DNA of 64,000 nt from Macrocystis pyrifera (lineage: Eukaryota; Sar; Phaeophyceae; Laminariales; Laminariaceae), in contig JASSKH010000006.1 in the NCBI GenBank assembly GCA_031763025.1, positions 12,335,979-12,399,978 on the forward strand. The letters run 5' to 3'. Both the position numbers and the translations under genes were made by a program. Shown piece by piece: positions 12,301 through 62,967 of the stretch (position 1 is the first letter of the stretch; every line of letters begins with the position of its first letter). A model generated the notes under the pieces. The model did no database searches and had not been told where the DNA came from. It saw only the letters and a list, made by a program, of their open reading frames with translations.

Positions 12301-15300
12301 CAGGCACGAGAGCAGAACAGTCTGCGAGTAGAGGCCTACAGCAGTACTCGCGCGGACTGGACATCCTTCCAAACAAGGCATAGTAAACCTGTACCAGGGT
12401 ATCAGATACACCAAACACAAAATAATGTGTGACCCGGAAACAGCACCGGGTATTCCGCCTGTTCAGGATAACGTACAGCAGGGGCAAAACAACATCCACC
12501 CCCCCCCCCAACCGTCATAATCTAGCATGGCACTTCGAAAAGTAACGCAAATACGGCAGAGGAGTCATGTGTGAGTTCAACCGATGGATTGGTCGATATC
12601 ATTCTCAGCCTTGCAAGCTGTCTCGTACATCGGCTTCGCGTGACCTACATTCTTCTCAATGACAGCGAGGGGTATGCGATCGGTCTGTGACCCCCCTGGT
12701 GACACTTAACATCGCTGCGAAGGGTCGAAAGGACGATTACTATACAACAAGGGCGGTTTCGGTTGACGGTCTACTCATTCTGCGCACGGAGACCACCGGT
12801 GTAGAACACACAATGAGCGGGGTTTCTGGGGCGTGGGAGGGGGGGGGTGTACTCATGTCGGTCGAAGTCGTATGACCATCGGTATCGACACTCTCTCCCT
12901 ATCACACCTCGAGGCCCTCAAGAAAGCTCAATGCAAGAGCTTCGGACCAACCGTCCGAAGACAGGGGTGGGGGGGTACTCATGTCATGCATGGCCGTAAT
13001 CGTATGACCATAGACCCTCGCATCCCTACAATGCCGGGATGGAGAATGTCTGGTTTGTCACCGACCAGGCAGATCGTGGAACAGGGGGGGGGGGGGGGTA
13101 TTACGAAATGATACCGCTATAATAGCCTGGCTAACTGACCTGCAACTTCTGAACGAAGAACGGGCACTTCTCGGCATCTATCCGCAGGAACTTGGACTCC
13201 AGATGCCTGGGGGCCAGCTCGCTGAGACGCAAGTCCATCACCTTGCACCTGCCCAAATAATCGGCGGGAGGGAACCCAGTTGGTTGGAGGATCGACGGAT
13301 CGACGGATGGACGACGTCAAAATCAACGGACATGATTTATTGTACTCGAACCGACGGGTACACGACACAGCAGAGAACTCCAACAAACTAGAGAATAATA
13401 GCTAATGAAATGCTTGGGGCGAACGCCGCGGGCAGGTTTCTCTCTCTTGTATGGTTGTGGTGTGGAGTAGGCACCGAGGGAGGTGGGTTCGTACCTCGGG
13501 TCTACACTGAACGGAGTGGCAGACCTTGGGTATAATGAGGCCGCACCATCTAGGGGAGGGGGACCTGGTGTCCACATCATCAGGGGAACTGGTTTCCATA
13601 TCACCCCCCTTGTGTTATTAGATGTGCGACCGCGCGTCTAACATAAAAGGTCAACAGTAATAGGGTTATAAAAAGGGGTGCAATATTTGAGTAATTGAAT
13701 ATTTTCAGGAGGCAATACATACCGGGTATTTATGCCACTTCATCATGGTTGATGGTTGGGGGTTGGGTCGCCTTAGGTTGACCGATGAATCATGCCATGG
13801 TCGACAGGTTGCCTTGGTTGGCAAGGCAATTCAGCGAAGTCGATGCATTGGTTACTCGGTTGATCGATTGACAACAAACTGGTTGTTGGCTGCTGCTCTC
13901 TCCCTTCAACGATGAATTGAGTCGAAGTCGAGCTCGATTTCAATTTTCAGCTTCGATTCGACTCCGACCGATGGGTTGGTTTATCCATGGACCCATGATG
14001 CGTCGGCTCACTGGTGGATACATAAAGCCCGTGGTCGGTTGTTTGGTCTATTGGTTGAGTGGGCCGCTTTCACAGTCCATCGAAAATGTTGTTTTTTCTT
14101 CTAGGGTGACACACCAGGGTAGCACACCCGGCGTCATTGCTAATGTACCTATTCCCCGGGCGATGGCGCCTCCGACATCCGCAGGAAACCCTCAACGACA
14201 AACTACACACCGTAAGGCAAGGCAAGCGTACGTAACGCCGGAAATGTTTTAGCACTACAGGGAGCAGTGGCCCTCGTCAACTGGTGTGTGCGACACCTAC
14301 TGTAGCCAAATGGCCTTGCCGGCGGGGCAACGGTGGGTGGGGGGTCGGGGTGTACTCATTATCATGAATGGCCGTAGTCGTATGGCAATAGACTATGTGG
14401 GGGGAGGAGGGGGGTACTCATTATCATGCATGGCCGTAGTCGTATGACCATAGGTGGGGGGGGGAGGGGGGGGGCGTACTCATTTGTTGCTTGCCTAGTC
14501 ATTGACCATTGACCACGCATTCCTTTCGAGACGGAGCACCGTTCCCACTCCTGATAGACACCTCCAACATTTGGGCGCTCATTACGTTGTTTCCATACAT
14601 TACGTAGAAACGTTTTGCTACTAATAATCTTATCCGCTTCCTGTTTCGCGGGAGGGGGGGGCGGTCAACGGCATGCATGTCCGTAGTCGTACGACCATAG
14701 ACCCTCGCATCGCTGCAGTGCCGGGACGGAGCAAGTCGGGTTTTCATCGACCAGGCAGACATTGAGTGCTTGCACCAAGCGCGAGGGGAAACGCGAGGTG
14801 ATCGGCGAGTCACACCAAGGGTGAGCTGCACCCTACTAAGAACCGCTTCTGAGGCGAATTTCGGCACCCTGTGCGCACTGTCATGCACACGGATGAAACC
14901 GTCCAATGCTTTACTTTGGGGGGGTGTACTCATGGCATGTATGGCCGTGGTGGTATGACCATAGACCCTCGCACCCCTACCATGCCGGGACGGAGCTCGT
15001 CGGATTTTTACCGACCAGGCTTTGGGGGGGAGGGGGGTAGAGGGAGCATCCCTATAGGATATATCGGCGCAATCAAGCGAAACCGCTGCTTGCGGTGCTG
15101 GATTACGACACCGACTCGCACATGCACCCCTCTTCCCCTCTCTCTTTCTGTCTCTGTGAACACTCCGCCGAGACGAATGATGTCGATACTGTATACCATA
15201 TTGCTCGCTCCCTCGGGAGAATTCCGATCTGATTGCTACGGACAACAGGGAGACTGCGAACACCGAGCGATGCGCCTAAGAAAATATCTCGATGAGGTAT

Positions 15301-32468: not shown

Positions 32469-32539
<71 letters not shown>

Positions 32540-39627: not shown

Positions 39628-40165
39628 GCGGGTGGGGGGGGGGTGTACTCATTATCATGCATGGTGGTGGTCGTATGACCATGGGCCCTCGCCTCCTTAC
39701 AATACCGGGACGGAGCATGTCGGGTTTTCACCGACCAGGCAGACATTGCCTGCACCGAGCGCGAAGCGAAACGTGAGGTGCTCGGCGAGTCGTCACATGA
39801 AACGTGAGCTGCATCGTGCAAAGAACCCCTTGTGAGGCGGTCTTGCACGTGGATGACAGCTTCCATGAGTTAATCTATTTCCCGGTGTGGCCACTTCCAG
39901 AGACAGCAATGGGAGTACTACGCAACTGCCTCGTGGGTGCCTCGGTAAACCGTATACACACTACGTGATGTGAGCATTCCCTTGTGCGGAGTAAAGGTTC
40001 TCCACCCCGCACAACTGATCCATAACTTAATCGCCAGCTGTGACCGACTGCCAAGAAAGAACAAGAACAAAAAAACGGCACCCTCGTTGTCTAGCTCAGG
40101 TAGTGAGCGGCATGTTTTACAGTGTCGTTGCCAACCGACGCGAACTCAACCCATATATAGCATAT
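39628..40165 (-). mobile_element. C-tailed repeat family, long copy (about 0.54 kb)
   Basis: Plus strand: G run, GTACTCATTATCATGCATGG, the 250-bp core, then an extra half with CCAGAGACAGCAATGGG, TGTGCGGAGTAAAGGTTCTC and TAGCTCAGGTAGTGAGC, the last resembling a tRNA A box. The same extended form occurs at 40255-40790 and 62325-62850. Confidence 0.82.
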
Positions 40166-40254: not shown

Positions 40255-40790
40255 TGTCCGGGGTGGGGAGGTGTACTCGATATCATGCATGGCCGTAGTC
40301 GTATGACCATAGATCCTCGCATCCCTACAATGCAGGGGCGCGCATGTCGGGTTTTCACCGACCAGGCAGACATTGCTTGCACCAAGCGCGAAGCGCCGTG
40401 AGGTGCCCGGCAAGTCGCATGAAGGGTGAGCTGCACCTTACTAAGAACCGCTTTAGAGGGGGATTTTCTTGCATTTGGATGACAGCGTCAATGAATTGAT
40501 TTAATTTCTGGTGTGGTCAGTTCCAGAGACAGCAATGGGGTTACTATTACTATGTAACTGCCTCGTGAGTGCCTCACCATATGCACACGACATGATACGA
40601 TCATCCCCCTTGTGCGGAGTAAAGGTTCTCCCCGCACAAAAATGGTCTAACTCGACCGCCAGCCGTGGTGACCGTCAAAAATCTAAAGCAAAACAATAAA
40701 ACGGTACCCTGGCTGTTTAGCTCACGCAGTGAGAGGCGTGTTTTACAGCGTCGTAGCCAACCGACGCCAGCCCAACCTATATATACCAGG
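40255..40790 (-). mobile_element. C-tailed repeat family, second long copy
   Basis: Same order of blocks as 39628-40165, in tandem with it. Includes TTTAGCTCACGCAGTGAGAG at about 40717. Ends near TATATATACCAGGTATATAA. Confidence 0.82.
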
Positions 40791-46447: not shown

Positions 46448-46543
46448 CCATAGTAAGTAGGACCTATGGTACACACGAAAACCTATACATTTACCTATTT
46501 TTGCTGACAAAACTTGGTCTTATTTACTATGTTCCCCCGTATT
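46448..46543. mobile_element. MITE family A, right part, split by a transposon
   Basis: CCATAGTAAGTAGGACC through to ACTATGTTCCCCCGTATT, the remainder of the MITE whose left end is at 44003-44019. Confidence 0.8.
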
Positions 46544-46645
46544 CTGTATTGCCACATGCCCTCCGTAAGAGCACATACGGCACCTCGACAAGAGTGTCAC
46601 ACACACGACAACCGCCCCCCCCCCCCCTCCCCTGCCCCGTGTCTA

Positions 46646-47130
46646 CTTCGCGAAATATACTGCGCTTTCGTGTAGGTGACCTAGACCTGCCAGAAAGAAG
46701 AAAGAGGTACACCAGTAGCCGGGAGGAGGAGGAAGTAGATGCACAGATGTGCCCGTGTGGCAAAGCAATAGAGAGTAGAACTCACATAGTAGAAGAGTGT
46801 GAAATATACAAGGAGGAACGAGATGTGTTAGATAAGGAGATGAGGGATATAGACGAATGTGACATGGAGGAGTTTGATACACTGAATAGCAGCGAGAAAA
46901 CGATCGCTATCCTAGGATAGATGGTGGCCACAGGCGGCCAGACATGAAGGGGAAGAGATTAGCAAAAAAAATCTATGTAATATATGGAAACAACGTAATG
47001 AGCGCCCAATTGTTGGAGGTGTCTCTATTAGGAGTAGGAACGGTGCTGCGTCTCGAAAGGGATGCGTGGTCAATGGTCAAATGACTAAGGCAAGCAACCA
47101 ATGACTACGCCCCCCCCCCCCCCCCCCCCC
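46646..47130 (+). mobile_element. 5'-truncated LINE with poly(C) tail and target duplication
   Basis: Codons to 46920 read FRVGDLDLPERRKRYTSSRE then AQMCPCGKAIESRTHIVEEC and EIYKEERDV, ending SSEKTIAILG. The CxCGxxxE-x-H-x5-C motif is the zinc-binding C-terminus common after reverse transcriptase in non-LTR elements. A stop at 46918-46920 and a frame change separate it from NNVMSAQLLEVS, so it is broken. The element ends GGCAAGCAACCAATGACTACG and 21 C (47110-47130). GTGTCTA flanks both sides (46639-46645, 47131-47137), preceded by C on each. Confidence 0.82.
46650..46920 (+). pseudogene. Reverse transcriptase C-terminal fragment
   Basis: Only the last ~90 residues of the LINE ORF, with the Cys-Cys-His-Cys knuckle (C-P-C-G, H, C). 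The conserved palm motifs of reverse transcriptase are absent because of 5' truncation. Confidence 0.7.
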
Positions 47131-47451
47131 GTGTCTATCCCACCCGCCATACATTGCGCACCAAGGAACCCACCTCTCCCACTCACTACAATTGTGTGTG
47201 CACTTATACATAGCGAAGGCCGGGGGACTGCCTGCCTATCTCGTTTTTTTTTGTTTGTTTCCAATCCTCCAGCGGATTGGTAAAAATATAGCTTAAGCTC
47301 ACCTATCTCGTCGGTCGATGTCACGACACGAAGAAAATTCGGCAGTGCCTACTATCCTACCCACAATGCATTCGCACACCGAACCAAACGCCCAGGGCAC
47401 CCACTCACTAAAATGACGCTGCTCTGGAAGGAAACAAAAGGAGGTTTTAGG

Positions 47452-62324: not shown

Positions 62325-62921
62325 ATCGTAGAACGCCTCGACGACTTTGTAAAGCACGCCTCTCACTGCGTGAGCTAGGCAACCAGGGTACCGTTTTTTT
62401 TTAATGGATATATTCTTTTGGCGGTCACCACGACTGGCGGTCGAGTTAGATCCTCTTTGCGCGGGGTGGAGAACCTTAACTCCGCACGAGGCGGATGATC
62501 GTATCACGCTCTGTGTACCTGGTACTGGTATACGGTAAGGCACCCACGGGGCAGTTACATTGTACCCCCATTGCTGTCTCTGGAAGTGGCCACACCCGAA
62601 AAACAAGAAAAATTCATTGACGCTGTCACCCACCCGTATGCAAGAAAATCCGCCTCAAAACCGGTTCTTAGTACTCGAAGGATGTATGTAGCCCACCCTT
62701 CATGCGACTCGCCCAACACCTCACGGCGCTTCGCCTTGGTGCAAGCAAAACGTCTTCCTGGTCGGTGAAAACCCGACGTGCTCCGTCCCGGCATTGTAGG
62801 GACGCGAGGGTCCATGCTCATACGACTACGGCCATGCATGATAAATAGTGCTCCGTCTCGAAAGGGATGCGTGGTCAATGGTCAAATGACTAAAGGCAAG
62901 CAACAAACGAGTACGCTCCCG

Positions 62922-62967
<46 letters not shown>
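62325..62967 (+). mobile_element. Chimeric C-tailed insertion: repeat family fused to LINE 3' end
   Basis: 62325-62850 is the extended C-tailed repeat (antisense A-box-like CACTGCGTGAGCTAG at about 62371 through GACTACGGCCATGCATGATA). At about 62852 it changes to GCTCCGTCTCGAAAGGGATG, the LINE 3' end, with GTGGTCAATGGTCAAATGAC and GGCAAGCAACAAACGAGTAC, then C homopolymer at 62921-62967. Confidence 0.78.

Follow-up and report, generated by a model that had tools for sequence, protein, structure and literature searches.

We found that the insertion at 46639-47137 of the window (the whole 64-kb stretch of Macrocystis pyrifera DNA analysed here) is likely a truncated, poly(C)-tailed copy of an APE-type LINE, which would have integrated at a C/G homopolymer tract by target-primed reverse transcription. 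The poly(C) tail extends beyond this single insertion: it is a trait of the family, common to the LINE and a SINE-like partner, and the preference of the LINE for C-run targets is itself part of the finding. The insertion and its surroundings are organized as follows, in window coordinates:

46615-46638, + strand: C-rich target tract, C13 T C4 TG C4, upstream of the insertion (read directly)
46635-46645, + strand: left copy of the target-site duplication, CCCCGTGTCTA (direct reading and duplication tests)
46646-47109, + strand: LINE 3' end, 5'-truncated, a frame-shifted C-terminal part of ORF2 (alignments and frames)
47102-47104, + strand: ORF2 stop codon TGA of the inserted LINE, with 5 nt between stop and tail
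47110-47130, + strand: poly(C) tail of 21 C, the final 4 possibly target (read directly; family tails)
47127-47137, + strand: right copy of the target-site duplication (direct reading and duplication test)

A preceding sequence-only reading had described a tail of 21 C with GTGTCTA on both sides, and direct reading bears this out. The C run occupies 47110-47130; the motif stands at 46639-46645 and 47131-47137, and two of its four occurrences on the + strand of the window fall exactly at the insertion edges. The longest direct repeat at the insertion is CCCCGTGTCTA (46635-46645 and 47127-47137), which includes adjoining Cs, so that 4 of the 21 tail Cs could be a copy of the target and 17 cannot. 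The earlier statement that the C run lies inside the element therefore holds for 17 Cs, and up to 4 may belong to the target. The identification of the stretch as a truncated LINE 3' end stands: among the best 40 of 2,896 candidate places scored in the genome, 39 further places match it at 92-94%, mostly from query position 7 on, and all 39 alignments cover 14 or more nt of the C run. For the right flank, no full-length second copy that could serve as an empty-site paralogue was present among the best 40 places scored in the genome, where 39 places match a ~60-nt stretch only, at window positions 47244-47303. The left flank holds a repeat, ~94-108 bp long, at window positions 46448-46541 and at six further places in the window, 78-88% alike and on both strands.

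The LINE is abundant. In the genome searched (537,376,219 bases in 223 contigs), a 40-nt 3'-end pattern with up to 3 mismatches detects ~7,600 LINE 3' ends (3,782 + 3,820 matches), and the reversed control of the pattern has zero matches genome-wide. Mutual identity among 36 copies of at least 300 nt is 86-100% over that length, with a median of 94%. Two further LINE 3' ends lie in the window:

14456-14608, - strand: second LINE 3' end, tail C9TC9
62844-62967, + strand: short LINE 3' end of ~75 nt that adjoins the end of a SINE-like copy; its tail includes C46

Judged by its sequence features, the element is an APE-type non-LTR retrotransposon (LINE), with reverse transcriptase (RT), endonuclease, 5' truncation and duplications all present. 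An RVT_1 domain (E 2.5e-31) was detected in fragments of single LINE copies, and the best matches of the RT among solved structures are R2 and LINE-1 ORF2p. Upstream of the RT, one copy possesses an Exo_endo_phos domain above the cut-off (E 4.8e-7, L010:4334-4705), with Exo_endo_phos_2 below its cut-off in the neighbouring pieces; the motifs GDFN and TDH, which we take to be endonuclease motifs, were recognised by eye in this region. Among 20 copies examined with 7.5 kb of upstream sequence, L015 and L022 match each other furthest, from a common point ~4.8 kb before the tail, which is a candidate 5' end of the full LINE. Truncation is frequent, in that the match to a long copy begins within the ~900 nt examined in 36 of 60 sampled copies; at least one of the apparent 5' ends, that of L050, is by eye an internal deletion. 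At the other end, 44 of 48 copies that comprise 120 nt or more of the element have the ORF2-frame stop as the second codon after the 3'-end anchor, with 3-5 nt left before the C run, and the LINE is thus practically devoid of a 3' UTR. Relatives of its C-terminal piece were absent from the viral contigs searched, as were relatives of its RT piece from the prokaryote contigs searched.

Poly(A) at the end of most copies would have contradicted the sequence-only reading, and a genome-wide comparison of tails on one anchor did not refute it. The anchor AATGACTAAGGCAAGCAAC has 2,040 forward and 2,031 reverse genome matches, and C6 follows within 6-20 nt at 1,849 of the 2,040 forward places (91%); forward counts were used for tails, and the reverse count of 14,327 lists single sites repeatedly. 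A poly(A) tail of the L1 kind was not found after the anchor: A6 occurs at three sites only, one forward and two reverse, and at all three a C run precedes it. For a closer view, 60 copies (L029-L088) were taken in listing order from the 7,602 matches by an exact 40-mer, skipping one place already contained in L027. All 60 are C-rich at the end; the first clean run of at least five Cs stands at the expected place in 53 (median 20, range 5-81), and the tail is interrupted or shifted in 7. The 30 3' ends printed from 20 other loci (L009-L028) are likewise C-rich, two of them decayed. Five of the 60 copies, on small contigs, have a common 3' flank next to runs of 22, 41, 54, 58 and 81 C, which indicates a duplicated locus whose run is unstable or badly sequenced and copies that are not all independent. 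The published M. pyrifera assembly is based on PacBio Sequel II reads, and Canu-corrected reads are mentioned (PMC10498591). Tail length did not correlate with divergence (Spearman -0.12, p 0.41, n=53).

The origin of the Cs admits a variant of our preferred explanation, in which they are added without a template before reverse transcription, either as Gs that the RT adds to the nicked primer or as Cs that a cellular enzyme adds to the RNA. Tails that are mostly pure homopolymer and variable in length would agree with such an addition, as would the varying base before the run (G, A or none); tails copied from the C run of a source copy would look identical, and the present data do not separate the two. 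We regard untemplated addition as possible, if on the doubtful side.

The targets were characterized in 56 LINE copies with a visible 5' end, comprising 35 of the 60 sampled copies, 20 from L009-L028, which had been chosen as best matches, and the 46639 copy. C6 lies within 30 nt upstream of the 5' end in 40 of the 56, G6 in none, an A run in one and a T run in one, relative to backgrounds of 1.8% (C6) and 2.0% (G6) in the window and of 3.0% (C6) and 0.7% (G6) in 3' flanks. The base before the target C run is A in 20 copies, G in 9 and T in 8, compared with T 76, A 67 and G 53 for runs in the window; these counts are too few for a nick motif to be called. By a simple motif test, 9 of the 56 copies are nested in older LINE or SINE-like copies, at their ends or tails.

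Target-site duplications can be judged where a run of at least four Cs lies no more than 20 nt away and is separated from the breakpoint by 3 nt or more, which holds for 32 copies. The segment is repeated at the tail end in 15 of these 32, the 46639 insertion included, as opposed to 101 of 1,760 mismatched pairs (5.7%), under a sharper definition that was chosen after the sequences had been seen and with several of the 15 segments short or C/T-only; the duplication is absent from 17. The duplication claimed for the single insertion is hence of a kind that recurs in the family. An earlier version of this test at the C-run end gave 12 of 28 versus 4.8%, and a looser first test, which took the longest exact match anywhere, gave no excess (at least 5 nt beyond the Cs in 17 of 56, control 25%). 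The duplications comprise the last Cs of the run and a further 3-14 nt. Since a short segment sits between the C run and the 5' end in the 15 duplicated copies, the C run is target sequence, not junction filler.

These targets lend themselves to another explanation, according to which the RNA stops at GAGTAC(G) with a few Cs at most and the right C run is the target's own, grown by slippage: where the target is a C run, as it mostly is, an apparent tail would come for free. The differing tail lengths of the five copies with a common 3' flank speak for this explanation, as does a right run no longer than the target run in 4 of the 15 duplicated copies. Two observations oppose it: i) the final right C run is the longer of the two in 11 of the 15, with 21 as opposed to 4 Cs in the 46639 copy, and ii) 16 of the 56 copies are without an upstream C6, yet every one of the 60 sampled tails is C-rich. 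We judge it improbable that the RNA is devoid of a C tail, and an RNA with a C run of its own is retained as the preferred reading.

The same tail is carried by a SINE-like repeat of ~510 bp, of which three copies were delineated in the window:

40273-40777, - strand: SINE-like copy, used as query; tail C-rich, C runs on the 5' side
39645-40151, - strand: second SINE-like copy (78% identity), ending in poly(C)
62341-62843, + strand: third SINE-like copy (80% identity), followed 3' by the short LINE end

In the window and at the loci inspected, this repeat has an AT-rich start with GGTTGGGTTGGCG and a GAGTAC(A) end, mostly followed by poly(C). Its 21-nt head occurs 2,081 + 2,109 times in the genome. 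On the reverse strand, from which the counts were taken and where each place is counted once, C6 lies 5-35 nt upstream of 1,648 of the 2,109 heads and G6 of 3; some heads stand in tandem or duplicated stretches, and not all are therefore separate insertions. At ~1.50-1.62 Mb of one contig (G000:C125), heads recur on one strand, many ~11 kb apart, as if in a large tandem array. The last ~75 nt of the SINE-like element align with the LINE end, with 54 of 83 columns identical in one pair. Scored against one LINE copy, 33 SINE copies have a median shared-end score of 51 (range 38-68), and 2,000 shuffles of one SINE copy reached a maximum of 22.5. A convincing structure common to the LINE and SINE ends was not found; the end of the 46646-47109 copy has a mildly stable fold only (z -1.9, 10 of 200 shuffles equally good). 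As regards an RNA polymerase III head of tRNA, 5S or 7SL origin, Rfam gave no match at gathering score in the window, SINE-like copies included. In most cases the AT-rich head directly adjoins the C run, and an unscripted inspection by eye of 14 near-full-length SINE copies revealed no clear duplication beyond the Cs, suggesting that the second-strand cut may fall inside the run. The SINE-like element probably uses the LINE machinery by way of its ~75-nt 3' end and the same tail. That the association with C runs is incidental, an artefact of assembly or of chance in a genome where such runs are common, has next to no probability: the window does hold 23 C/G runs of at least 10, of which 16 lack a GAGTAC-like end immediately before them, yet chance would not produce a strand bias of 1,648 versus 3 at SINE heads, nor a fixed place behind the ORF2 stop at 1,849 of 2,040 anchors with a C6 background of 1.8-3%.

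Taken together, a model for the mobility of the two elements can be proposed. The LINE RNA would end in, or contain, a C run directly after the ORF2 stop codon. The endonuclease would nick the strand that carries the G run and so produce a 3' end of Gs, which would anneal to the RNA's C run and be extended. A cut of the other strand some 3-14 nt downstream would then generate a duplication made of the C-run end and a short segment. The new poly(C) tail would offer a further target, and copies would come to nest in each other's tails; the ~510-bp SINE-like element would be moved by the same LINE. Among the genomic copies, the tails, a strand-specific target bias, duplications in part of the copies, a shared 3' end and nesting can be read directly, and a bottom-strand nick with a G-run 3' end, joined to pairing with a C-run RNA, would account for tail, target, strand and duplication at once, in what amounts to the L1 scheme with another base pair. 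That C in the RNA pairs with G of the primer strand, as the sequence-only reading had envisaged, is likewise supported by the strand specificity of the C-run targets. In a broader form, for which we see slightly better than even chances, C:G has taken the place of the A:T logic of L1 throughout the LINE/SINE system: nicked G runs prime on poly(C)-tailed RNA, and insertions lay down new C runs as further landing sites, building and spreading their own targets through the genome.

L1-type LINEs possess a poly(A) tail and a TTTT/AA target. The kelp LINE resembles them in its APE endonuclease and RT, its 5' truncation and short duplications, and in a tail that could base-pair with the primer end predicted for its target; it departs from them in using C:G for A:T, in having almost no 3' UTR, and in a conserved ~75-nt 3' end that is common to a SINE-like element. 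LINE/SINE pairs of the UnaL2/UnaSINE1 type share a 3' tail and end in short tandem repeats. Here too, a non-autonomous element carries the LINE 3' end and tail, with the differences that the kelp pair ends in poly(C) and that the common stretch overlaps the last part of ORF2. LINEs and LINE-dependent SINEs are already known. Insertion into simple repeats is known as well: one study describes microsatellite-targeting non-LTR elements, namely some HERO-clade families and Togen, found in (TG)n (PMC4640811). The kelp LINE is like these in inserting into a simple repeat. It is unlike them in that its target is a homopolymer and also its own tail, and in that the groups named there are elements with a restriction-like endonuclease (PMC4640811). 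No description of a poly(C)-tailed LINE or SINE with C-run targets was found among the titles and abstract openings listed in the open-access literature under C-run and G-run terms, which may miss papers spelling only 'poly(C)', nor among those listed first on kelp repeats, the host, site-specific elements and brown-algal LINEs, nor of a poly(C)-tailed LINE or SINE in passages of PMC10498591, PMC10663159 and PMC4640811. As far as these searches reach, poly(C) tails matched to C-run targets are new.

How closely RNA tail and primer need to match is a standing question of target-primed reverse transcription, and most work on it has used poly(A) elements. A natural system of thousands of copies, in which tail and target are both C:G, would allow a direct test of the coupling between tail and primer, and the LINE is a source of an endonuclease with a possible preference for G runs. 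The poly(C) elements may also account for some of the long C/G runs adjoining repeats in the genome.

Two minor observations may be added. The window contains a C70 run (32469-32538) without a recognised element end before it. Among L029-L088, 10 of the 36 match starts fall into an 18-nt interval ~55-72 nt upstream of the tail, in a sample whose 40-nt anchor leaves out shorter copies and in which one of the ten, L030, may extend upstream. The clustered starts fall near the start of the 3' domain common to LINE and SINE, and these tiny LINE copies perhaps reflect an RT stop or a minimal mobile unit.
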